A stretch of DNA of 64,000 bases, taken from Polymorphum gilvum SL003B-26A1 (GTDB taxonomy: Bacteria; Pseudomonadota; Alphaproteobacteria; Rhizobiales; Stappiaceae). A program made the translations under genes and the position numbers. Positions within the stretch are counted from its first letter, which is position 1. Every line of letters starts with the position of its first letter. Positions 15,642 to 30,667 of this stretch are shown here, piece by piece. The notes under the pieces are model-generated. The model saw nothing but the letters and a program-made list of their open reading frames with translations, was not told the DNA's origin and did no database searches. Location: assembly GCF_000192745.1 (NCBI RefSeq), contig NC_015259.1:1069001-1133000 (forward strand), written 5' to 3'.

Positions 15642-16307
15642 CTATTCCTCCAGGCGCTGGAGTATCATGCGAGCCAGGGCGAAGATGCGCTGTTCCAGGA
15701 TTACCGGCGTCTCGCAGACGTAGGTGAGCGACTGGCGCCTGTCCTCGAAGATGCGCGTGTCCCAGGTGACCTGATCGTCCAGTTCCTCGATCCGGTCATG
15801 GTCGGGCTCGGTAACTGCCCTTAGGTCATGCAGTTCGGTTCGGCGCCGGTCGATCTGTTCGGACAAGGCCGTCTGTTTCTTTGCGTAACGGCCGATGCCG
15901 GCAATGATCGCGGACCGATCCCGTTCGATGCGTTCGAACGTTGCGAGGAAGAGCCCGGCAAGGGCGGGTTCGCGGTCGCTGGCGTGGGCCTTGGCGAAGG
16001 CGTCGATCAGGCTTTCGGCGCCCTCAAGGGCAGTCCTGCGGACGGCAAGGCGGCCGGCAAGATCGATGATTTCCCGGTCCTTCGCGCGTGCCTCGACCGC
16101 CTCGTCGATGGCCGGGCCGGACCACATCTGGCCGATTGAGAGATGCGGTACCTTGCGCTGGATGCAGGGCCATTCGGGGTCGTCGAAACTGGCGGCGACT
16201 GCGGGTTGCCCGAAGCCGACAAGGCTTGTCAGCGTCAGGGTGAGCGCGGTCAGGGCGAGCGGGCCGGAAAGGGCTTTGCGGCTCGGCTTTGATGGCAGGT
16301 GACGCAT
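15642..16307 (-). CDS. Exported helical protein of unknown function
   Basis: Protein of 221 residues with a long signal peptide (cleavage near AVAASFDDPEW). The mature part begins with a conserved-looking DDPEWPCIQRKVP segment and then becomes strongly helical and charged, for example EQIDRRRTELHDLR and DRIEELDDQV, which suggests a coiled coil. Two cysteines (PCIQ and YVCET) could form a disulfide. The start at 16307 is set by GGGGGAGGACAGG. It converges with the zinc hydrolase gene. No function is recognised; its place between the relay hydrolase and formaldehyde dehydrogenase suggests a methanol-system accessory. Confidence 0.8.
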   Translation of the reverse strand: MRHLPSKPSRKALSGPLALTALTLTLTSLVGFGQPAVAASFDDPEWPCIQRKVPHLSIGQMWSGPAIDEAVEARAKDREIIDLAGRLAVRRTALEGAESLIDAFAKAHASDREPALAGLFLATFERIERDRSAIIAGIGRYAKKQTALSEQIDRRRTELHDLRAVTEPDHDRIEELDDQVTWDTRIFEDRRQSLTYVCETPVILEQRIFALARMILQRLEE

Positions 16308-16700
16308 CCTGTCCTCCCCCGGATTTCTTTGTCCCGACGGTCGAAGATGGGGAGCGGTGCTGTCAAAGGGTATTTCTTGAGAAAATAATAAGAATGAGAG
16401 AGTCTCAGAATCCGGGCGCCACCGCTCCCCTGGCCCGGGTGAGGAGACCGGCTCTCGCGACACCTCCAAAGCTTTGGCAGAAGAGCCGCTCGCCGATCCC
16501 CGGACGGCGCGTTCCATTTCCGGGGCATAGGTGTGCCGGCTGCCCGAACCCCTGCGATTTCCGACTAATGTCCTGTCTCTTTTCGCGCGAGCGGGCCGAT
16601 ATAGTCGGCCCAATGCGCGCTCCGACGGGTGCGCAATCGATCATGATTGACCGGGTGGGAACTCCGTAAGACGGCCCGGCGTTTCGAGAGGAGACGCAAG
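16308..16700. promoter_or_regulatory. Divergent control region between the unknown exported protein and formaldehyde dehydrogenase
   Basis: 393 bases without a credible gene. It holds an AT-rich stretch around 16365-16400 (CTTGAGAAAATAATAAG), unusual for this GC-rich DNA and a likely promoter area, and a 12-bp palindrome CCAAAGCTTTGG at 16466-16477. No copy of the 18-bp island motif was seen. Confidence 0.45.
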
Positions 16701-19956: not shown

Positions 19957-21759
19957 ATGAGGAAGCTGATTCTCTGCGCGGCTGCCGCGCTGGTCTCGAC
20001 CAGCTATGCAGCGCTCGCAAATGACTCTGTCCTGCAGGGACAGAGCGATCCGAAGCAATGGGTCCTGCAGACGGGCGACTACGCGAACACGCGCTTTTCC
20101 CAGCTCGACGAGATCAACAAGGACAATGTCAAGGACCTGCAGGTCGCCTGGACCTTCTCGACCGGCGTCCTGCGTGGCCATGAGGGCTCGCCGCTCGTCG
20201 TCGGCGACGTGATGTATGTCCACACGCCGTTCCCGAACAACGTTTTCGCCTTGGATCTCAACAACGACGGCAAGATCCTGTGGCGCTACGAGCCCAAGCA
20301 GGATCCGGACGTCATCGCGGTGATGTGCTGCGACACCGTCTATCGCGGTCTTGCCTATGCCGACGGCAAGCTGTTCCTGCACCAGGCCGATACCACCGTC
20401 GTGGCGCTGGACGCCAAGTCTGGTGCGGTGCTGTGGAGCGTCGTCAACGGCGATCCCTCCATCGGCGAGACCAACACCGCGACGGTTCTGCCGGTCAAGG
20501 ACAAGGTCATCGTCGGCATCTCCGGCGGCGAGTTCGGCGTACGGGGTTCCGTGACCGCCTACAACATGAACACCGGCGAGCGGGTGTGGCGTGCCTATTC
20601 CATGGGCCCGGACGAGGACATTCTGGTCGATCCGGAGAAGACCACCCATCTTGGCAAGCCGGTCGGCAAGGACTCCGGCCTGAACACCTGGGAAGGCGAC
20701 CAGTGGAAGATCGGCGGCGGCACCACCTGGGGCTGGTACTCCTATGATCCGGAAGCCGACCTCGTCTACTATGGCACTGGCAATCCCTCGACCTGGAACC
20801 CCTCGCAGCGTCCCGGCGACAACCGTTGGTCCATGACCATCATGGCCCGCAACCCCGACACCGGCATGGCCAGCTGGTTCTACCAGATGACACCGCATGA
20901 CGAGTGGGACTACGACGGCATCAACGAGATGATCCTGAGCGATCAGGAGATCAACGGCGAGATGCGCAAGGTGCTGGTCCACTTCGACCGCAACGGCTTC
21001 GCCTACACGATGGACCGCCTGAGCGGCGAGTTGCTCGTGGCGGAGAAGTACGATCCGGTCGTCAACTGGGCGACCCATGTCGAGATGGACAAGAACTCCG
21101 ACCAGTACGGTCGGCCGCAAGTCGTCGCACAGTACTCGACCGCGCAGAACGGCGAGGACGTCAACACCACCGGCGTCTGCCCGGCGGCGCTCGGCACCAA
21201 GGACCAGCAGCCGGCGGCCTTCTCGCCGCGGACCGGTCTGCACTACGTGCCGACCAACCACGTCTGCATGGACTATGAGCCGTTCCGCGTCAGCTATACC
21301 GCCGGCCAGCCCTATGTCGGGGCGACGCTGTCGATGTATCCGGCGCCGGACAGCCATGGCGGCATGGGCAACTTCATCGCCTGGGACGCCACGAAGGGTG
21401 AAATCGTCTGGTCGCTGCCCGAGCAGTTCTCGGTGTGGTCCGGAGCCCTGGCAACGGCTGGCGACGTCGTGTTCTACGGGACGCTGGAAGGCTATCTGAA
21501 GGCGGTCGACGCCAAGACGGGTGAACTGCTGTACCGGTTCAAGACCCCGTCCGGTATCATCGGCAACGTCATGACCTACGAGCACAACGGCAAGCAGTAT
21601 GTCGGCATCCTGTCGGGCGTCGGCGGCTGGGCGGGCATCGGCCTCGCGGCCGGTCTGACCAACCCGAACGACGGTCTCGGCGCGGTCGGCGGCTATGCCG
21701 CCCTGTCCGACTACACCTCGCTCGGCGGCCAGCTCACCGTGTTTGCGCTGCCGAACTGA
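19957..21759 (+). CDS. xoxF: Lanthanide-dependent methanol/alcohol dehydrogenase XoxF
   Basis: Periplasmic PQQ enzyme of 600 residues that oxidises methanol (and possibly formaldehyde or other primary alcohols). Signal peptide to ALANDS; eight-bladed propeller with W-docking repeats; vicinal disulfide Cys124-Cys125 that sits over PQQ. The metal and catalytic residues align with XoxF numbering: Glu192, Asn276, catalytic Asp318 and the extra Asp320 (HDEWDYDG). Calcium-type MxaF has Ala at the last position, so Asp320 marks lanthanide dependence. No mxaI small-subunit gene is nearby, as expected for XoxF. The start at 19957 follows GGGAGG. Electrons should go to the cytochrome encoded next. Confidence 0.96.
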
Positions 21760-21797
21760 GGTCTGTGGACTAAGGTCGTAAAAACTCGGCGATGACG

Positions 21798-21836
21798 GCT
21801 CGGCCCCAAGTGTTTACTCTTGGGGCCGAGCTTTTT
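21798..21836 (+). terminator. Strong intrinsic terminator/attenuator between xoxF and xoxG
   Basis: GCTCGGCCCCAAG (21798-21810) and CTTGGGGCCGAGC (21819-21831) form a perfect 13-bp stem with an 8-base loop, followed directly by TTTTT. The xoxG ribosome-binding site GGGAGG follows immediately. This should end most xoxF transcripts and leave limited read-through into xoxG-xoxJ, or protect the 3' end of xoxF mRNA. Confidence 0.9.
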
Positions 21837-21854
21837 GGGAGGAAAGATCTAGAA

Positions 21855-22385
21855 ATGACCAAGAAATTCTCGTTGCTGTCCGCGTCCGTGATGGCCGTTG
21901 CGGCAATCCTGGCAAGTGCGCCGATCGGCGCCGAAGAGGTCAAGCCGGACGTCGCGGTGGAGTACGTCGAAGGAGGGCGCGCGTTCACCAAGGACGATAT
22001 TCCGACCTACTTCATCGCCGAGGATGGTACCGTCGACTGGCCGGTGTTTTCGGGCTTCCGGCGCTATCACGCCGAATGTCACGTCTGCCACGGACCGGAT
22101 GGCGAGGGATCGACCTATGCTCCGGCCCTGAAGGAGTCCGCGTTGGCGATGGACTATTACGACTTCATCGAGGTCATCGCGAGCGGTCGCCAGAAGGTCG
22201 GCGCGTCGGAGAACTCGGTCATGCCGGCGTTCGGCACGAACAAGAACGTGATGTGCTTCGTCGACGACATCTATGTTTATCTGAAGGCGCGTGGCATGGA
22301 TGCGATCGCGCGCGGTCGGCCGGCCAAGAAGGTCGACAAGCCGGATGAACTGCGTGCCGAGGAAGAAGAGTGCATGAGCGGGTGA
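21855..22385 (+). CDS. xoxG: c-type cytochrome XoxG, electron acceptor of XoxF
   Basis: Periplasmic mono-heme cytochrome of 176 residues with signal peptide to IGAEE. The heme motif CHVCHG is at residues 75-80, and the axial Met is probably in SVMPAFG near 123. It belongs to the methanol-metabolism-related cytochrome c group. The start at 21855 was chosen over an upstream ATG at 21792 because the latter lies before the terminator hairpin and adds a non-signal extension. It accepts electrons from XoxF. The C-terminal tail is charged and ends EEEECMSG, with a stray Cys. Confidence 0.93.
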   Translation: MTKKFSLLSASVMAVAAILASAPIGAEEVKPDVAVEYVEGGRAFTKDDIPTYFIAEDGTVDWPVFSGFRRYHAECHVCHGPDGEGSTYAPALKESALAMDYYDFIEVIASGRQKVGASENSVMPAFGTNKNVMCFVDDIYVYLKARGMDAIARGRPAKKVDKPDELRAEEEECMSG

Positions 22386-23212
22386 CGGTGATGGTCAGGT
22401 GGTTGGTGCTGTGCGTGCTGATGGCCCTGCCGGTGACGGCGGCACAGGCGCAGGTCTCGGACCTCGTCTCGAGCACGGCGTTCCGCGTCTGTGCGGATCC
22501 GGCGAACCTGCCGTTTTCCAGCAAGTCGGGCGAGGGGTTCGAGAACAGGATCGCTGACCTGGTCGCTGCCGAACTCGGAATGCCGGTCGAATACACCTGG
22601 TTTCCGATGGCGACCGGCTTCGTCCGCAATACCTTGCGGACGGGCCAATGCGACGTGATCCTGGGCTTTGCCCAGGGACACGAACTCGTCCTCAATACAA
22701 ACCACTACTACACCTCGACTCACGTTCTCGTGACACGCACGGACAGTGCGCTGGCGGAGGTCGATACGCTGTCGGATAGTCGGCTTAAGGGCCGCGAGAT
22801 CGGCGTTATCGCGGGGTCGCCGCCAGCGTCGCATCTGGCCCGCAATGGATTGATGGCGACGACCCATGGCTACAACCTGATGGTCGATCGCCGTGTCGAA
22901 AGCCCCATCGAGACGATGCTTCGCGACCTGTCCGAGGGGCGGCTCGACGCCGCGATCATGTGGGGGCCGGCCGGGGCTCCGCTCGCCAAGTCCATGGCCG
23001 GATTGAAGATAACGCCCCTGCTGAAGGAGCCGGAAAGCCCGAAGCTGTTCTACCGGATCACCATGGGGGTGCGTCAGGGCGAGCTGGTCTGGAAGCGCAA
23101 GCTGAATTCCCTGATCCGCAAGAAGCAGGACGAGATCGATGCGATCCTGCGCGAGGCCGGTGTGCCGCTGCTGGATGACATGGGTCGGGCGCTCAAGACG
23201 GACGGGGGATAG
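22370..23212 (+). CDS. xoxJ: XoxJ, quinoprotein dehydrogenase-associated periplasmic binding-like protein
   Basis: Periplasmic solute-binding-fold protein of up to 280 residues, with signal peptide to AAQAQVSD. It has the type II binding-protein fold (FRVCADPANLPFSSKSGEGFENRIADLVA) characteristic of XoxJ/MxaJ, proposed to help activate or load the dehydrogenase. The start at 22370 overlaps xoxG by 16 bases and has a purine-rich GAGGAAGAAGAG upstream; an internal ATG at 22391 also leaves a good signal peptide. It follows xoxF-xoxG in the conserved order, and the next gene starts directly after its stop. Confidence 0.93.
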   Translation: MHERVTVMVRWLVLCVLMALPVTAAQAQVSDLVSSTAFRVCADPANLPFSSKSGEGFENRIADLVAAELGMPVEYTWFPMATGFVRNTLRTGQCDVILGFAQGHELVLNTNHYYTSTHVLVTRTDSALAEVDTLSDSRLKGREIGVIAGSPPASHLARNGLMATTHGYNLMVDRRVESPIETMLRDLSEGRLDAAIMWGPAGAPLAKSMAGLKITPLLKEPESPKLFYRITMGVRQGELVWKRKLNSLIRKKQDEIDAILREAGVPLLDDMGRALKTDGG

Positions 23213-23770
23213 ATGATCCGGGCGGCCGCCTTTGCCGTCCTCGTTTCCGTGCTTTGCGTGGCAGGCGCGGCGGGGCAGGCGGGCGGAGTTGCGGAGCCGG
23301 ACGGGTTCCGGGGGGAGCCCTACCGGGCGCCGGTTCCCGAGACGCTCGAAGGGGCACAGGTGCTCGACGATGCCGGCGCCCACGCGTTGTGGCTGGGGGG
23401 ACAAGCCGTTTTCGTCGACGTGCTGCCGAAGACCGAGCGGCCGGCCAACCTGCCGGCTGGAACGCTTTGGCGGGACAAGCCGCACGTCAGCATCAAGGAT
23501 GCTGTCTGGCTGCCGGGTACCGGCTACGAGGCCTTGCATCCGGACGTGGAAATGTATCTGAAACAAGGGCTTGAGGCGATCACGGGCGGCGACAGGGACA
23601 AGCCGCTCGTGATCTTCTGCCTGGCCGATTGCTGGATGTCCTGGAACGCCGCCAAGCGGGCCGTGAGCTACGGCTACCGGCAAGTCTACTGGTATCCGGA
23701 CGGCGTCGACGGGTGGGATTTCTCCGGTCACCCGCTGGAGACGATCACGAAGTTCGAGGTGGACAACTAG
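23213..23770 (+). CDS. PQQ-dependent catabolism-associated CxxxCW-motif protein (rhodanese-like)
   Basis: Exported protein of 185 residues with a signal peptide ending near GAAGQAGG. A rhodanese-like fold is suggested by DAGAHALWLGGQAVFVDVLP and by the active-loop-like FCLADCWMSWNAAKRA. Here the two Cys are separated by three residues (C-LAD-C-W). The family is found with PQQ-dependent alcohol catabolism genes; its role is unknown, perhaps thiol chemistry on a periplasmic partner. It begins at the base after the xoxJ stop, and its stop overlaps the convergent propeller gene by 4 bases. Confidence 0.88.
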   Translation: MIRAAAFAVLVSVLCVAGAAGQAGGVAEPDGFRGEPYRAPVPETLEGAQVLDDAGAHALWLGGQAVFVDVLPKTERPANLPAGTLWRDKPHVSIKDAVWLPGTGYEALHPDVEMYLKQGLEAITGGDRDKPLVIFCLADCWMSWNAAKRAVSYGYRQVYWYPDGVDGWDFSGHPLETITKFEVDN

Positions 23771-24705
23771 CGTGGGGCGAGCAGGAAGGCGCCGAAGGCC
23801 CTCGGTCCGTCTCCGACCGCGATCTCATCCGTAACTTCTTGTTTTTCGACGTCAATCAGGCTCAGGCTGTTGGACATCCAGTTGGCGACGACAACAAGGC
23901 GGCCGTCCGATGTCGTCCCGATTCCCTCCGGATACTCTCCCACTTCCATCCTGCCTACCACCTGACCGGCTTCGGCGTCGAACACGGTGACGGTGTCGGC
24001 ATACTGGTCGGTGACGAAGCCGAGATCGCCGGCGAAGGCGATCGTATAGGGACGTTCGCCAGTCGGTATCTGTGCGACCAGGGTCGCCGTCGCGAGGTCG
24101 ACGACGCTGACGGTGTTGGAGCCGACGTCAGCCGTATAGGCCCGGCCGTCGCGCAGGGTGACGCCGAAGGGCCGCGTGCCGGTGCCGACGACGGCAAGGC
24201 GGTCGCCGGTGGCGGTGTCGAACACCGAGATCTGGCTGTCGTCGCGGTCGGCGGTGACGAGCAGGGCGCCGTCCGCGCTGACGGCGAGGCCGGAGGGTGA
24301 GGCGCCGGTCGCCAGTTCGCGGATGACGGCGAGGCGGTCGGGATCGATCTCCCAGACGCGGGCGCCGTACCAGTCCGATACGTAGATGCGGCCGTCGACC
24401 GGGTTGACGGCGATGCCGAAGGGGCCGCCGTCCAGTTGAAGGAGGGTGCTGACGTCGGCGCCGTCGGCGGCCAGAACATTCAGCACTTTGGTTTCGGGAC
24501 TGACGACATAGACGGTCCGTCCGTCCGGCGACAGGGCGACGCCGGCCGGCTTGCCGCCGACTGCCACGGTGCGGATCACGGTGCGCGCGTCGATGTCGAC
24601 GACGGTGACAGTGCCGCTGCCCTGGTTGGTGACGAAGGCGAGGTCGCCGGCCAGCGCCGCGCCGCCGCACAGCAGAGCGGCGACGAGCGCTGCGACGCGG
24701 ATCAC
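23767..24705 (-). CDS. Exported YVTN/YncE-like beta-propeller protein
   Basis: Periplasmic seven-bladed propeller of 312 residues with a signal peptide ending AALAGDLAF. Repeats of the form TVTVVDIDARTVIRTVAVGG-KPAGVALSPDGRTVYV recur about every 42 residues. It belongs to the propellers associated with PQQ-dependent catabolism. The start codon is GTG, overlapping the SRPBCC gene stop (GTGA). It faces the CxxxCW gene end to end. A second, divergent propeller lies at 27147-28109. Role unknown; a scaffold or binding protein is likely. Confidence 0.88.
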   Translation of the reverse strand: MIRVAALVAALLCGGAALAGDLAFVTNQGSGTVTVVDIDARTVIRTVAVGGKPAGVALSPDGRTVYVVSPETKVLNVLAADGADVSTLLQLDGGPFGIAVNPVDGRIYVSDWYGARVWEIDPDRLAVIRELATGASPSGLAVSADGALLVTADRDDSQISVFDTATGDRLAVVGTGTRPFGVTLRDGRAYTADVGSNTVSVVDLATATLVAQIPTGERPYTIAFAGDLGFVTDQYADTVTVFDAEAGQVVGRMEVGEYPEGIGTTSDGRLVVVANWMSNSLSLIDVEKQEVTDEIAVGDGPRAFGAFLLAPR

Positions 24706-25241
24706 TCGCGCGATCCGAATTTCGCCTTCAGCGCTTCCATGCCGGCCTCGTAGACGGCGGTCACGGCGGCGACGGCCGCCTCGTCGTTGAGATGGGCTGG
24801 CGGATCATTGTTCGGGAAACCGCGATAGAAGGCCCCGCGCCATTCGACCAGGGCCTTGCCGCCGTCGTCCTTGACGGTGAGGTGGGCCGAATAGTTGGTC
24901 ACCGGCAGGACTTCGACGTCCACGGCCTCGATCCGGTAGGAATAGGTGCGCTTGTCGGCGTCGTACTTGTAGAGCAGCTCGGAAATGGTCGGCCCGCCCT
25001 CCTTTTCGAGCGTCAGCACGCGGGTGGCATCGATGGCGTTGCCGTTCTCGCCCGCGGTCGCGAACACCGCCGGGTGCCAGGACATGTCCTGGAAGTCGCC
25101 GATTGCCGTCCAGACCTCGTCGGGCGTGGCGTCGAGCTTGGCGGTCACGGTGACTTTCTGGCGCGAGGGGCCATGGGCGGAAGCCGGTGCTAGGCCGAGA
25201 ACGACAATGGCGAGCGACGCCAGGACAGCGAGAAACTTCAT
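24702..25241 (-). CDS. Exported SRPBCC-family protein (MxaD-like)
   Basis: Protein of 179 residues with signal peptide (cleavage near SAHGPSRQ). The START/SRPBCC hydrophobic-pocket fold is visible: ATPDEVWTAIGDFQDMSWHPAV and the C-terminal helix VYEAGMEALKAKF. MxaD, a periplasmic protein that promotes electron transfer between methanol dehydrogenase and cytochrome cL in Methylobacterium, is of this type. A similar helper role for XoxF is inferred. It is coupled to the propeller gene by GTGA and preceded by the DUF3280 gene. Confidence 0.85.
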   Translation of the reverse strand: MKFLAVLASLAIVVLGLAPASAHGPSRQKVTVTAKLDATPDEVWTAIGDFQDMSWHPAVFATAGENGNAIDATRVLTLEKEGGPTISELLYKYDADKRTYSYRIEAVDVEVLPVTNYSAHLTVKDDGGKALVEWRGAFYRGFPNNDPPAHLNDEAAVAAVTAVYEAGMEALKAKFGSRE

Positions 25242-25947: not shown

Positions 25948-27135
25948 ATGCGCCTGACTGCGCTGGCGGGAGTGCTTGCCGTCTTGCTGCCTTGCGCCGC
26001 CTTGGCCAAGGAGACACAGGAGATCCGTTCCGCCGTGATCCGCGTCGGCGAGGGCAATCGCACACCGACGTCCCGCCTCGATCTGCCGCCAAGCGACGTC
26101 GGCTTTGCCGGCGCGCGGCTTGCCACCGACGACAACCAGACGACCGGTCGCTTCATGGGCCAGACGTTCCTGACCGAGGAGGTTCCCGTCGCCACCGCCG
26201 AGGAGGCGGGCGCGAAGCTGGAGGAACTGATCGCGCAGGGAACCCGATTCATCGTGACCATGGCCGATGCCGACACGACGCTGGCGCTGGCGGACCGGGC
26301 CGGCGACCGGGCCCTGGTCCTCAACGCCATGGCGCGCGAGGACCGGCTGCGCAACGAGGCCTGCCGGGCCAATCTGCTGCACACCGCGCCGAGCCACGCG
26401 ATGGTGGCGGATTCGCTGGCGCAGTTCCTGGTCTGGAAGGGCTGGCGCAACTGGTTCCTCATTTCCGGCGATCACGCGGAGGACCTGGCGCTGGCCGATG
26501 CCTACCGGCGCGCGGCGCGGAAATTCGGCGCAAAGATCGTCGAGGAACGCGTCTTCGAGGACACGGGCGGGGCGCGCAGGACCGATTCCGGCCACGTCCA
26601 GGTGCAGAAGCAGATCCCGGCCTTCACGCAACGGGCCAAGGCGCACGACATCGTCGTGGCGGCGGACGAGAACGATGTGTTCGCGGTGCATCTGCCGTAT
26701 CACACCTGGGATGCGCGCCCGGTCGCCGGGTCGGCGGGCCTTCGGCCGCTGACCTGGCACCCCGCGCAGGAGGCCTGGGGTGCGACACAGTTCCAGAACC
26801 GTTTCGAACGTGCCTCCAACCGGTTCATGCGCGAGGAGGACTATCAGGTCTGGACCGCGCTGCGGGTGCTGGGCGAAGCGGCGACGCGGACGAAGTCCGG
26901 GGAGTTCGAGGTTCTGCGCGACCACATCCTCGGCGAGAGCTTCGAACTGGCAGCGTTCAAGGGGCAGAAGCTGACCTTCCGGTCCTGGGACGGCCAGCTG
27001 CGCCAGCCGATCCTGCTGACGGCCGATCGCATCCTCGTCTCGGTGTCGCCGCAGCCGGAATTCCTGCACCAGGTGTCTCATCTCGACACCCTGGGCCACG
27101 ACCGGCCAGAATCGGCCTGCTCCCTCAAGCGATAG
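25948..27135 (+). CDS. ABC transporter substrate-binding protein of the PQQ-dependent alcohol dehydrogenase system
   Basis: Periplasmic type I binding protein of 395 residues with a signal peptide ending CAALAKETQ. It has the Leu/Ile/Val-binding-like two-lobe fold (SHAMVADSLAQFLVWKGWRNWFL). The start at 25948 follows GGGGAGGAAG. It is first in a plus-strand run with the propeller, the small secreted protein and the PepSY-like protein; the ABC exporter subunits follow at 29130-30667. A binding protein of import type next to an ABC-2-type exporter is a peculiarity of this PQQ-associated system. The ligand is unknown. Confidence 0.9.
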   Translation: MRLTALAGVLAVLLPCAALAKETQEIRSAVIRVGEGNRTPTSRLDLPPSDVGFAGARLATDDNQTTGRFMGQTFLTEEVPVATAEEAGAKLEELIAQGTRFIVTMADADTTLALADRAGDRALVLNAMAREDRLRNEACRANLLHTAPSHAMVADSLAQFLVWKGWRNWFLISGDHAEDLALADAYRRAARKFGAKIVEERVFEDTGGARRTDSGHVQVQKQIPAFTQRAKAHDIVVAADENDVFAVHLPYHTWDARPVAGSAGLRPLTWHPAQEAWGATQFQNRFERASNRFMREEDYQVWTALRVLGEAATRTKSGEFEVLRDHILGESFELAAFKGQKLTFRSWDGQLRQPILLTADRILVSVSPQPEFLHQVSHLDTLGHDRPESACSLKR

Positions 27136-27146
27136 GACGACCCTGC

Positions 27147-28109
27147 ATGCTCCGAGCCCTTCTTCTTGCCTCCGCCTGCCTCGTCGTAACGCCGGCGCTT
27201 GCCAACAAGGTCTTTGTCTCGAACGAGAAAGGCAACACGATCACCGTGCTCGACAGCACGACGAACGAGGTGATCGCTACCTTCCCGGGCGGCCAGCGGC
27301 CGCGCGGCATCACCATCTCGCCGGACGGCAAGGAACTCTACGTCTGCGCTTCGGACGACGACCTGGTGCGGGTGTTCGATCCGGAAACCTACCAGGAACT
27401 ACACACCCTGCCGTCCGGGCCGGATCCCGAGCTGTTCGTGCTGCATCCGTCGGGCAATCCGCTCTTCATTGCCAACGAGGACGACAACATCGTCACAGTG
27501 GTCGACGTGAAGACGCGCAAGGTGCTGGCAGAGATCCCGGTCGGCGTCGAGCCGGAGGGCATGGGCGTCAGCCCGGACGGCAAGATCGTGGTCAACACGT
27601 CCGAGACGACGAACATGGCGCATTTCATCGACACGGAGACTTATGAGATCGTCCAGAACGTGCTGGTCGACCAGCGTCCCCGCTTCGCCCAGTTCACCGC
27701 CGACGGCTCGCGTCTCTACGTCAGCGCGGAAATCGGCGGCACGGTCAGCGTGATCGACCCGACCAGCGGCGAGATCGTCAAGAAGATCACCTTCGAGGTG
27801 CCCGGCGTCGTGCCGGAAGCCCTCCAGCCGGTGGGCGTGCGCGTGACCAGCGACGGCAAGAAGGTGTTCGTCGCGCTCGGTCCGGCGAACCGGGTCGCGG
27901 TCGTCAACGGGGATACGCTCGAAGTCGACAAGTACCTGCTGGTCGGCCAGCGCGTCTGGCAGCTCGCCTTCACGCCGGACGAGAAGTGGCTCTACACCAC
28001 CAACGGCAATTCCAACGACGTGTCGATCATCGACGTGGAGGAACTGAAGGTCGTCAAGTCCGTCCAGGTCGGCGAACAGCCGTGGGGCGTCGTAGTGGCG
28101 CCGAACTGA
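27147..28109 (+). CDS. PQQ-dependent catabolism-associated beta-propeller protein
   Basis: Exported propeller of 320 residues with signal peptide ending TPALANKVF. YVTN-type repeats such as NTITVLDSTTNEVIATFPGG and RPRGITISPDGKELYV recur about every 42 residues, giving seven blades. It is 11 bases after the binding protein gene and 21 bases before the next secreted protein gene. It is distinct from the minus-strand propeller at 23767-24705 but of the same class. Role unknown; co-occurrence with PQQ dehydrogenases is established for the family. Confidence 0.92.
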   Translation: MLRALLLASACLVVTPALANKVFVSNEKGNTITVLDSTTNEVIATFPGGQRPRGITISPDGKELYVCASDDDLVRVFDPETYQELHTLPSGPDPELFVLHPSGNPLFIANEDDNIVTVVDVKTRKVLAEIPVGVEPEGMGVSPDGKIVVNTSETTNMAHFIDTETYEIVQNVLVDQRPRFAQFTADGSRLYVSAEIGGTVSVIDPTSGEIVKKITFEVPGVVPEALQPVGVRVTSDGKKVFVALGPANRVAVVNGDTLEVDKYLLVGQRVWQLAFTPDEKWLYTTNGNSNDVSIIDVEELKVVKSVQVGEQPWGVVVAPN

Positions 28110-28130: not shown

Positions 28131-28559
28131 ATGAAAAAGACCGTACTTGCTTTCGTCGCCGCTGTGCTCGCGACGCCGGCTGCCGCCCATGATTACGGCT
28201 TTGCCGGTCTGCTGTCGAAGAACAACCGCGAGACGCTGGCGCCGCTGACGCTTGCCTCCGGCAAGCCGGTCGCCGAGGCACCGTACATGCTCAAGTCGGG
28301 AATGTACTACAAGATCAAGATGGTCGCCGACGGGTCGGCGGAACTGGCATTGTCCGGCGGCGAGTTCTTCCGCGCGGTCTGGGTCAACGAGATCGTCATC
28401 AACAAGATCGAGGTGCGGCCCATGGGCGTGCACAGCATCGAGTTCGACGCCGGCGGCGAAGCGGAGATGTCCTTCATCGCCATCAAGCCCGGGACCTACG
28501 AACTCAGCATCCCCGGATCGACCGGCGACACCCAGAAGGCCGTCTTCGTCATCCAGTAG
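28131..28559 (+). CDS. Small secreted protein of unknown function
   Basis: Protein of 142 residues with signal peptide to TPAAAHDYG. The mature part looks all-beta, like a cupredoxin- or Ig-type sandwich (MYYKIKMVADGSAELAL, GTYELSIPG), but lacks a Cys-Met-His copper site. No cysteines are present. GGGAGGAACAG precedes the ATG. It sits between the propeller and the acidic PepSY-like protein in one operon, so a periplasmic accessory role in XoxF function or lanthanide handling is plausible but unproven. Confidence 0.82.
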   Translation: MKKTVLAFVAAVLATPAAAHDYGFAGLLSKNNRETLAPLTLASGKPVAEAPYMLKSGMYYKIKMVADGSAELALSGGEFFRAVWVNEIVINKIEVRPMGVHSIEFDAGGEAEMSFIAIKPGTYELSIPGSTGDTQKAVFVIQ

Positions 28560-28608
28560 GAGAACCGGCGCCGTCCGCATCCCCGAGACCTGAAAGAGGA
28601 GGAATACA

Positions 28609-28860
28609 ATGTTGCGCGCATTTGCCCTGTCCGCCACGTTCGCCGTCGGCCTCGCCGCTCCGGCCTTCGCCGACGATCCGACGCCGGAGGCGGTCGAGAA
28701 GATCAATGCCCTGCTCGCCTCGATGAACTGCGAAATCGACGAGGACGACATCGAGATGGAGGATGGCGGCTATGACCTCGACGACGTCCAGTGTGCCGAC
28801 GGTCAGTACGACATGAAGCTCAACGCCAACTTCGAGGTGACCGACCGGCGCAAGGAATAG
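28609..28860 (+). CDS. Tiny very acidic PepSY-like periplasmic protein, candidate lanthanide binder
   Basis: Protein of 83 residues with signal peptide ending PAFADDPT. The mature 62 residues carry 20 Asp/Glu. The pattern EAVEKINALL then DDGGY-like (EDGGYDLDDV), CADGQYDMKLN and a final FEVTDRRKE fits one PepSY domain. Two cysteines could form a disulfide. Lanpepsy of Methylobacillus, a periplasmic lanthanide-binding protein, is built from PepSY domains, so this protein beside xoxF is a good lanthanide-binding candidate. It has no EF-hand, so it is not lanmodulin. GAGGAGG precedes the start. Binding is inferred, not shown. Confidence 0.82.
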   Translation: MLRAFALSATFAVGLAAPAFADDPTPEAVEKINALLASMNCEIDEDDIEMEDGGYDLDDVQCADGQYDMKLNANFEVTDRRKE

Positions 28861-28895
28861 GCATGTAGACATGGGTCCGAAAGGGCGATGACGAC

Positions 28896-28925
28896 GGAGG
28901 CCCGGCCTGCGCATGCCGGGCCTCC
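28896..28925 (+). terminator. Hairpin after the PepSY-like gene
   Basis: GGAGGCCCGGC (28896-28906) and GCCGGGCCTCC (28915-28925) form a perfect 11-bp stem with an 8-base loop, 36 bases after the stop. Only a short pyrimidine stretch follows instead of a T-run, so it may be a weak or Rho-assisted terminator. Confidence 0.6.
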
Positions 28926-29028
28926 GGCCTCTTCGGTCCCGACCTGCTTGGGTTCCGGTGCGATCCGGTCCAGATGACTGCCGCAGGGCCTCGTCCCGGA
29001 CAGTGCTACGGTCGCCGCACGGGCGGCC

Positions 29029-29129: not shown

Positions 29130-29861
29130 ATGACCGCATTGCAGATCACCGGCGTCCGCCATTCCTTCGGCAAGACCAGGGCGCTCGACGACGTGTCGCT
29201 GAGCGTGAAGGAAGGCTCGTTCACGGCCCTTCTCGGCGTCAACGGCGCCGGCAAGACGACGTTGTTCTCGCTGATCACACGGCTCTACGACAACGTGTCG
29301 GGCGAGATTCTGGTGTGCGGCTACGACGTGCGGCGCCGGCCCGGGCCGGCGCTGGCCTCGCTCGGCGTCGTGTTCCAGTCGAGCGCCATGGACCGAGACC
29401 TGACCGTGCGTCAGAACCTCACCTATCACGCAGCGTTGCACGGGCTCGGGCGGGCCGAGACGCGCCGGCGCATCGACGAGGCGACGACGCTGGTCGCCAT
29501 CGCCGACCGTCTCGACAGCCGGGTCTCGGCGCTGTCGGGCGGGCAGCAGCGGCGGGCCGAGATCGCGCGCGCCCTGATGCACGGGCCGCGGCTGCTGTTG
29601 CTCGACGAACCGACGGTGGGTCTCGACGTGAAGTCTCGCATCGAAGTCGTGGCGCTGGTGCGCCGCCTGGTCGAGCAGGAAGGCGTCGCGGCGCTGTGGG
29701 CGACGCATATCCTCGACGAGATCGAGCCCGACGACGACGTCGTCGTGCTGCACAAGGGGCGGGTGCTGGCGCAGGGTACAGCGGGTGCACTTGCCGGAGC
29801 GGAGGGCCTGTCGGAGGCGTTCCTGCGCCTGACCGGGCTCAACGCGGAGGCGGCGGCATGA
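29130..29861 (+). CDS. ABC transporter ATP-binding protein, PQQ-dependent alcohol dehydrogenase system
   Basis: Cytoplasmic ATPase of 243 residues for an ABC-2-type exporter. Walker A GVNGAGKTT, signature LSGGQQRRAEIARAL, Walker B LLLLDEPTVGLD, and switch His in ATHILDEIE. It belongs to the group found beside PQQ-linked alcohol oxidation genes and pairs with the permease that overlaps its stop by ATGA. No good Shine-Dalgarno sequence is visible before the ATG. The exported substrate is unknown. Confidence 0.92.
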   Translation: MTALQITGVRHSFGKTRALDDVSLSVKEGSFTALLGVNGAGKTTLFSLITRLYDNVSGEILVCGYDVRRRPGPALASLGVVFQSSAMDRDLTVRQNLTYHAALHGLGRAETRRRIDEATTLVAIADRLDSRVSALSGGQQRRAEIARALMHGPRLLLLDEPTVGLDVKSRIEVVALVRRLVEQEGVAALWATHILDEIEPDDDVVVLHKGRVLAQGTAGALAGAEGLSEAFLRLTGLNAEAAA

Positions 29862-30667
29862 CCCGGCTCGGCTGGTGCGGCCGCCTGATCGCCTTCCGCG
29901 GCATCGTCTGGCGCGAGGGTCTGCGCTTCACCCGTCAGCGCGAGCGCTTCCTGTCCGCGCTGGTGCGCCCGCTGGTGTGGCTGTTCATCTTCGCGGCCGG
30001 CTTCCGCGCCGTGCTCGGCCTGTCGATCACGCCGCCCTACGAGACCTACGTGCTCTACGAGGTCTACGTGACGCCGGGCCTGTGCGCCATGATCCAGCTG
30101 TTCAACGGCATGCAGTCGTCGCTGTCGATGGTCTACGACCGCGAGACGGGCGCCATGCGCGTGCTGCTGGTCAGTCCCTATCCGCGCTGGTTCCTGCTGA
30201 CCTCCAAGCTGCTGGCCGGTGTCGCCGTGTCGGTCGTGCAGGTCTATGCCTTCCTCGCCATCGCCTGGTTCTGGGAGGTCGAGCCGCCGGTGCTCGGTTA
30301 CCTCGCAGTGCTGCCGGCGCTGATCCTGTCGGGCATGATGCTTGGCGCGCTCGGCCTGCTGATCTCCTCGACGATCCGGCAGTTGGAAAACTTCGCCGGG
30401 GTGATGAACTTCGTCATCTTCCCGATGTTCTTCGCCTCGACGGCGCTCTACCCGCTGTGGCGCCTGCGCGATTCCAGCGTGCTGCTGGCCGACATCTGCG
30501 CCCTCAACCCGTTCACTTATGCCGTCGAACTGATCCGCTTCGCCCTCTACCTGCAGGTCGACTGGACGTCGCTGGCGGTGGTGGCCAGCTGCACGGCGGT
30601 GTTCCTCGGCGGGGCGATCTATGCCTACGATCCGAGCAAGGGGCTGATCCGGCTGCGCCGGGGATAG
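29858..30667 (+). CDS. pedC: ABC-2-type permease, PedC-like
   Basis: Inner-membrane permease of 269 residues with six hydrophobic segments. The ABC-2 signature region LISSTIRQLENFAGVMNFVIFPMFFASTALYPLW is split here by the conserved Pro and aromatic residues. It resembles PedC of the Pseudomonas phenylethanol (ped) PQQ-alcohol cluster. The start overlaps the ATPase stop (ATGA), so the two are coupled. Together with the binding-like protein at 25948 it forms the PQQ-associated transporter, which may export a product or help deliver a cofactor or metal chelator. Confidence 0.9.
   Translation: MTRLGWCGRLIAFRGIVWREGLRFTRQRERFLSALVRPLVWLFIFAAGFRAVLGLSITPPYETYVLYEVYVTPGLCAMIQLFNGMQSSLSMVYDRETGAMRVLLVSPYPRWFLLTSKLLAGVAVSVVQVYAFLAIAWFWEVEPPVLGYLAVLPALILSGMMLGALGLLISSTIRQLENFAGVMNFVIFPMFFASTALYPLWRLRDSSVLLADICALNPFTYAVELIRFALYLQVDWTSLAVVASCTAVFLGGAIYAYDPSKGLIRLRRG

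Follow-up and report, generated by a model that had tools for sequence, protein, structure and literature searches.

What is the function of a very small, acidic, secreted protein whose gene lies within a xoxF island? The window analyzed here, a 64,000-nucleotide stretch of the Polymorphum gilvum SL003B-26A1 genome (contig NC_015259.1, positions 1,069,001 to 1,133,000), encodes such a protein, which a sequence-only reading had put forward as a candidate single-domain PepSY-like lanthanide binder that could serve as a periplasmic buffer or as a chaperone for XoxF. XoxF is carried by many marine and soil Rhodobacterales, and the alphaproteobacterial lanthanide binders that have been studied, LanM and LanD, come from relatives of Methylobacterium. 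As described below, the protein is probably a previously unreported rare-earth-handling protein, because its gene takes the position occupied elsewhere by lanD and because its co-occurrence with XoxF is nearly constant. A search of the open-access literature returned no report of a PepSY gene in the lut clusters of Alphaproteobacteria.

The gene extends from 28609 to 28860 on the forward strand and encodes 83 amino acids, as delineated by the open reading frame list, profile matches, the alignment, and the predicted model. A Shine-Dalgarno-like AGGAGG, read from the sequence (28597..28602, +), precedes the ATG with a spacing of 6 nt. The N-terminal segment, MLRAFALSATFAVGLAAPAFA (28609..28671, +), was delineated by eye and is modeled with low pLDDT; it looks like a signal peptide ending in APAFA, directly ahead of DDP. 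The mature part comprises 62 residues, among them the 20 acidic residues that had been counted previously (12 aspartates and 8 glutamates) and 5 lysines or arginines. Its pI is 4.05, and its calculated charge is about -15 at pH 7. In an alignment of 92 sequences, I32, C41, D58, D59, C62, G65, Q66, and D68 are invariant, and the dN/dS values between close pairs of relatives, 0.05-0.27, indicate purifying selection. On these two grounds the reading frame is a genuine coding gene. Just 3' of its stop codon there is a GC-rich, 12-bp hairpin (28895..28926, +; z -2.7 in the fold of 28860-28960), which has no T-run and was not picked up by the terminator scan. It may represent the end of a lutA-propeller-lutC-pepsy unit.

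The claim of a single PepSY-like pattern stands for the family, as judged from profile matches: 14 of the 15 members in the alignment match PF13670 (PepSY_2) at E up to 0.1, the best of them at 3.4e-10, whereas the match of the window protein itself (E 0.0079, 16.6 bits) falls below the Pfam cut-off of 24.3. A model of the protein built by AlphaFold with a 74-sequence alignment displays one helix (26-38) and a four-stranded sheet, with pLDDT >90 for the greater part of the mature chain. The top row of the VIA-align comparison was UipA (Z 6.9, rmsd 5.6, 69 residues aligned), with a Z-score not above the general level; the match of the model is compatible with a PepSY fold and is not decisive. 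Foldseek alone gave no match to the model at E ≤ 0.001, and sequence searches of the PDB with the protein and with its profile returned nothing credible.

The surroundings of the gene bear out its earlier placement in the xoxF island and locate it more exactly, namely within the lut block. The lanthanide-dependent methanol dehydrogenase XoxF (19957..21759, +), which is 64-85% identical to XoxF of many genomes, is followed by a XoxG-like cytochrome c (21792..22385, +) and a XoxJ-like periplasmic protein (22370..23212, +), both named from position and sequence within the xoxF synteny. Between xoxFGJ and lutA lie genes for a CXXCW protein and an SRPBCC (MxaD-like) protein (24702-25241, -). The latter and a second beta-propeller (23767-24705, -) accompany the cluster and were found with it in 47-49 of 80 loci. 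The lut genes begin with LutA, the periplasmic binding component (25948..27135, +; TIGR03863 and synteny), and a beta-propeller in the LutB position (27147..28109, +; TIGR03866 and synteny), the start codons of both having been chosen by eye. These are followed by a 142-residue protein with a predicted cupredoxin-like fold (28131..28559, +), whose gene is the conserved neighbor upstream of the PepSY gene and which, by the published gene order, is a homologue of Methylorubrum extorquens LutC. Beyond the PepSY gene lie the ABC ATPase LutE (29130..29861, +; TIGR03864 and synteny) and the ABC permease LutF (29858..30667, +; synteny, tblastn, and reading frame, with an approximate start codon). A LutG homologue is contained in a more distant reading frame (15642..16613, -), in which 15651-16226 matches the LutG-position protein of an M. 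extorquens-like genome (40% identity, 6e-40). No second PepSY gene or tandem pattern was found in the window. The family to which P. gilvum belongs mostly lacks both PepSY and XoxF, which suggests that the island was acquired.

The M. extorquens-like genome has the gene order lutA, propeller, lutC, LanD, lutE, lutF, and its LanD matches landiscernin (PDB 9c8w) with an E value of 2e-32. LanD, also called LutD, is a periplasmic lanthanide-binding protein associated with LutAEF (PMC10848612). Thus, the slot between lutC and lutE that holds LanD in that genome holds the PepSY gene in the window. At 74 LutC loci taken from the search of Hyphomicrobiales, the next gene encodes LanD in 23, PepSY in 16, neither in 35, and both in none. 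Part of this exclusion pattern is a matter of lineage, because by sequence identity the two types of slot, PepSY and LanD, belong with different sub-branches of LutC. Homology between the two small proteins was considered and ruled out by an hhalign comparison of their profiles (probability 0.6%). It is an evenly balanced proposition that the LutC slot of lut clusters is filled by two or more small lanthanide-binding proteins that are unrelated to each other, LanD in Methylobacterium-like genomes and, in Rhodobacterales as well as other Alphaproteobacteria, a PepSY protein with a single domain. In some LutC loci (L085, L086, L087, L092, L093, and L213) the next gene looks like a homologue of LutG rather than LanD or PepSY.

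The linkage to LutC extends well beyond the window. In a set of 397 Hyphomicrobiales genomes the best PepSY matches mostly lie directly downstream of the LutC homologue, and a separate scan, of named genomes, recovered 80 relatives, mostly from Rhodobacterales but also from Rhizobiaceae; 77 of these have the LutC homologue upstream. Both lutA and the lut beta-propeller are present at 70 of these 80 loci and lutE at 45, and XoxF lies in the same locus (20 kb or less) in 54. In several Ruegeria loci the PepSY gene appears to be the last of a lutA-propeller-lutC-pepsy unit, since lutE and lutF are encoded there on the opposite strand. The LutC-PepSY pair is separated from the rest of the lut genes in Methylobrevis, in one Chthonobacter, and in the f34 genomes.

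Homologues found mostly in genomes without XoxF would have spoken against the proposed link to lanthanide metabolism; in fact, XoxF is encoded in the genomes of 79 of the 80 relatives, including 25 of the 26 that have no XoxF nearby. Strong co-occurrence was likewise observed in two genome sets, with statistics that ignore phylogeny in both. Among the Hyphomicrobiales, 49 of 64 genomes with PepSY carry XoxF (Fisher 5e-19), a count that takes in PepSY proteins not belonging to the lut clade as well as XoxF-like sequences with only about 53% identity; when restricted to LutC-linked PepSY and XoxF of at least 60% identity, the count is 13 of 15 genomes (4e-7). In a Rhodobacterales family, sampled as a set centered on a carrier genome, XoxF is present in 13 of 15 PepSY genomes versus 23 of 174 overall (p 8e-12). 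Ten of these 23 XoxF genomes have no PepSY gene, and the protein is therefore not required. A class-wide sample spread evenly over families contained only two PepSY carriers. In two genomes with no XoxF match (G182 and G359), PepSY matches occur in pairs within one frame of 178-205 aa, which suggests two-domain PepSY proteins.

The mean numbers of acidic and basic residues are 18.9 and 5.3 in PepSY proteins of the lut clade versus 15.7 and 8.5 in outgroup relatives. Most of the invariant carboxylates (E49, positions 56, 58, 59, 68, and 74, and the C-terminal acid) are common to relatives outside lut clusters, and for this reason they may be structural. Enrichment in the lut clade is confined to D44 and to acids near positions 38, 46, 52-53, and 70. 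In the window protein, K70, N72, and N74 stand at positions that tend to be acidic in the clade.

Four characterized or related groups of proteins provide points of comparison. Landiscernin of M. extorquens, with about 61 residues in its mature form and two cysteines, resembles the window protein in being a small, secreted, acidic component of a lut system encoded directly after lutC. It differs in that it has no Pfam match, its profile is unrelated, and it never shares a LutC slot with a PepSY gene. Lanpepsy (LanP) of Methylobacillus flagellatus is likewise periplasmic, contains PepSY domains, and belongs to a lanthanide context; it binds up to four Ln3+ ions, with acidic residues in the site (PMC11845868). 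By description, however, it is a 19 kDa protein with two PepSY domains (PMC12482762), whereas the window protein has one and a mature mass of about 7 kDa, and a common fold alone does not make the latter the minimal form of Lanpepsy that the sequence-only reading had envisaged. UipA from Microbacterium has the PepSY fold and a negatively charged face through which uranyl is bound, but it is a tandem-PepSY, single-pass membrane protein of uranium tolerance (PMC8963506). The non-lut secreted PepSY_2 proteins of Hyphomicrobiales belong to the same family and retain C41, C62, D59, D68, and other residues; they are less acidic and, in the fetched set, do not lie behind lutC except in L088.

Given the slot, the acidity, and the fold, the best reading of these data, and one that is somewhat favored, is that the single-domain PepSY protein binds lanthanides in LanD's place in many lut clusters and acts alongside LutC and LutAEF when lanthanides are handled in the periplasm. 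The protein would be exported to the periplasm, where one helix is predicted to pack against the four-stranded sheet and C41 and C62 may form a disulfide. Surface carboxylates, possibly those of the 44-53 loop together with E49, D56, D58/D59, and D68, would coordinate a trivalent lanthanide. In conjunction with LutC, the protein might then hand the metal to the LutA/LutEF transporter or withhold it, such that its role could be metal delivery, buffering, or the diversion of unwanted lanthanides.

The sequence-only reading had instead suggested a periplasmic lanthanide buffer or a chaperone of XoxF; in this view the protein would load the enzyme directly, in the manner of LanM or Lanpepsy. The near-complete co-occurrence with XoxF would fit such a role, as would the finding that one LanM query gave no match in the genome of P. 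gilvum, LanM being present in 110 of 111 genomes of the Methylobacterium-like genus. The tightest linkage, however, is to LutC (77 of 80 loci) and the lut transporter genes rather than to xoxF (54 of 80 within the locus), orphan LutC-PepSY pairs are located away from xoxF, and the gene occupies the position that landiscernin has elsewhere. Direct loading of XoxF is accordingly regarded as unlikely, and participation in the LutAEF branch of transport, given the LutC linkage and the landiscernin slot, fits better. The same linkage, which is the most conserved of all and is kept where the other lut genes are not nearby, could mean that the protein simply stabilizes LutC or the transporter and has no metal role of its own, its acidity being a surface property. 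That many of the carboxylates are common to non-lut relatives is in keeping with this idea, but the extra acidity of the lut clade, the LanD slot, and the existence of f-element-binding PepSY proteins make it quite improbable.

A further precedent is DbfQ of Vibrio cholerae, which like the window protein is small, secreted, and built from a single PepSY domain, and which acts on an adjacent sensor kinase; a wide linkage of PepSY proteins to kinases has also been described (PMC12714742). A protein that reports lanthanide status by binding a sensor kinase is nonetheless very improbable here, for only 4 of the 80 loci had a match to the one kinase query or the one regulator query within 4 kb, and the nearest recognized two-component pair in the window is about 16 kb from the PepSY gene. 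Similarly, there is scant likelihood that the protein binds another cation such as Ca2+ or Fe3+, or that it inhibits a peptidase, in line with the older general idea on PepSY domains. Protease inhibition has been proposed for these domains (PMC12714742), and the title of a paper by Gallois et al. cited there refers to iron binding by UipA, but the near exclusivity of the PepSY gene to XoxF and lut contexts speaks against both.

If the preferred reading, a lanthanide-binding PepSY protein of the LutC/LutAEF branch, is correct, a conserved protein in the LanD slot would identify a component so far missing from the picture of lanthanide handling in Rhodobacterales. It would be a lanthanide-binding PepSY protein with just one domain, which may differ in the lanthanides that it favors, and would provide a scaffold of very small size for separating rare earths. 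The exchange of LanD for PepSY would, in addition, provide a test of what the LutC slot does.

In an uncultured Roseovarius (L160:6488-7048), and nowhere else among the loci, the lut cluster has two PepSY genes in tandem. Each encodes a single domain, and only one of them falls in the lut clade, the other being of a different subtype; as a pair they look like a two-domain Lanpepsy divided in two. In L100:7881-8138 a different PepSY subtype is flanked by lutA and the beta-propeller gene instead of following LutC. The record titled Oceanobacillus (L101, WNWL01000005.1) contains a typical alphaproteobacterial lut cluster and is probably mislabeled. Finally, in two Rhodovulum loci (L129:11556-12068 and L175) a secreted EF-hand protein, LanM-like at about 35%, is encoded near the PepSY gene, its start in L129 lying ~1.4 kb after that gene.
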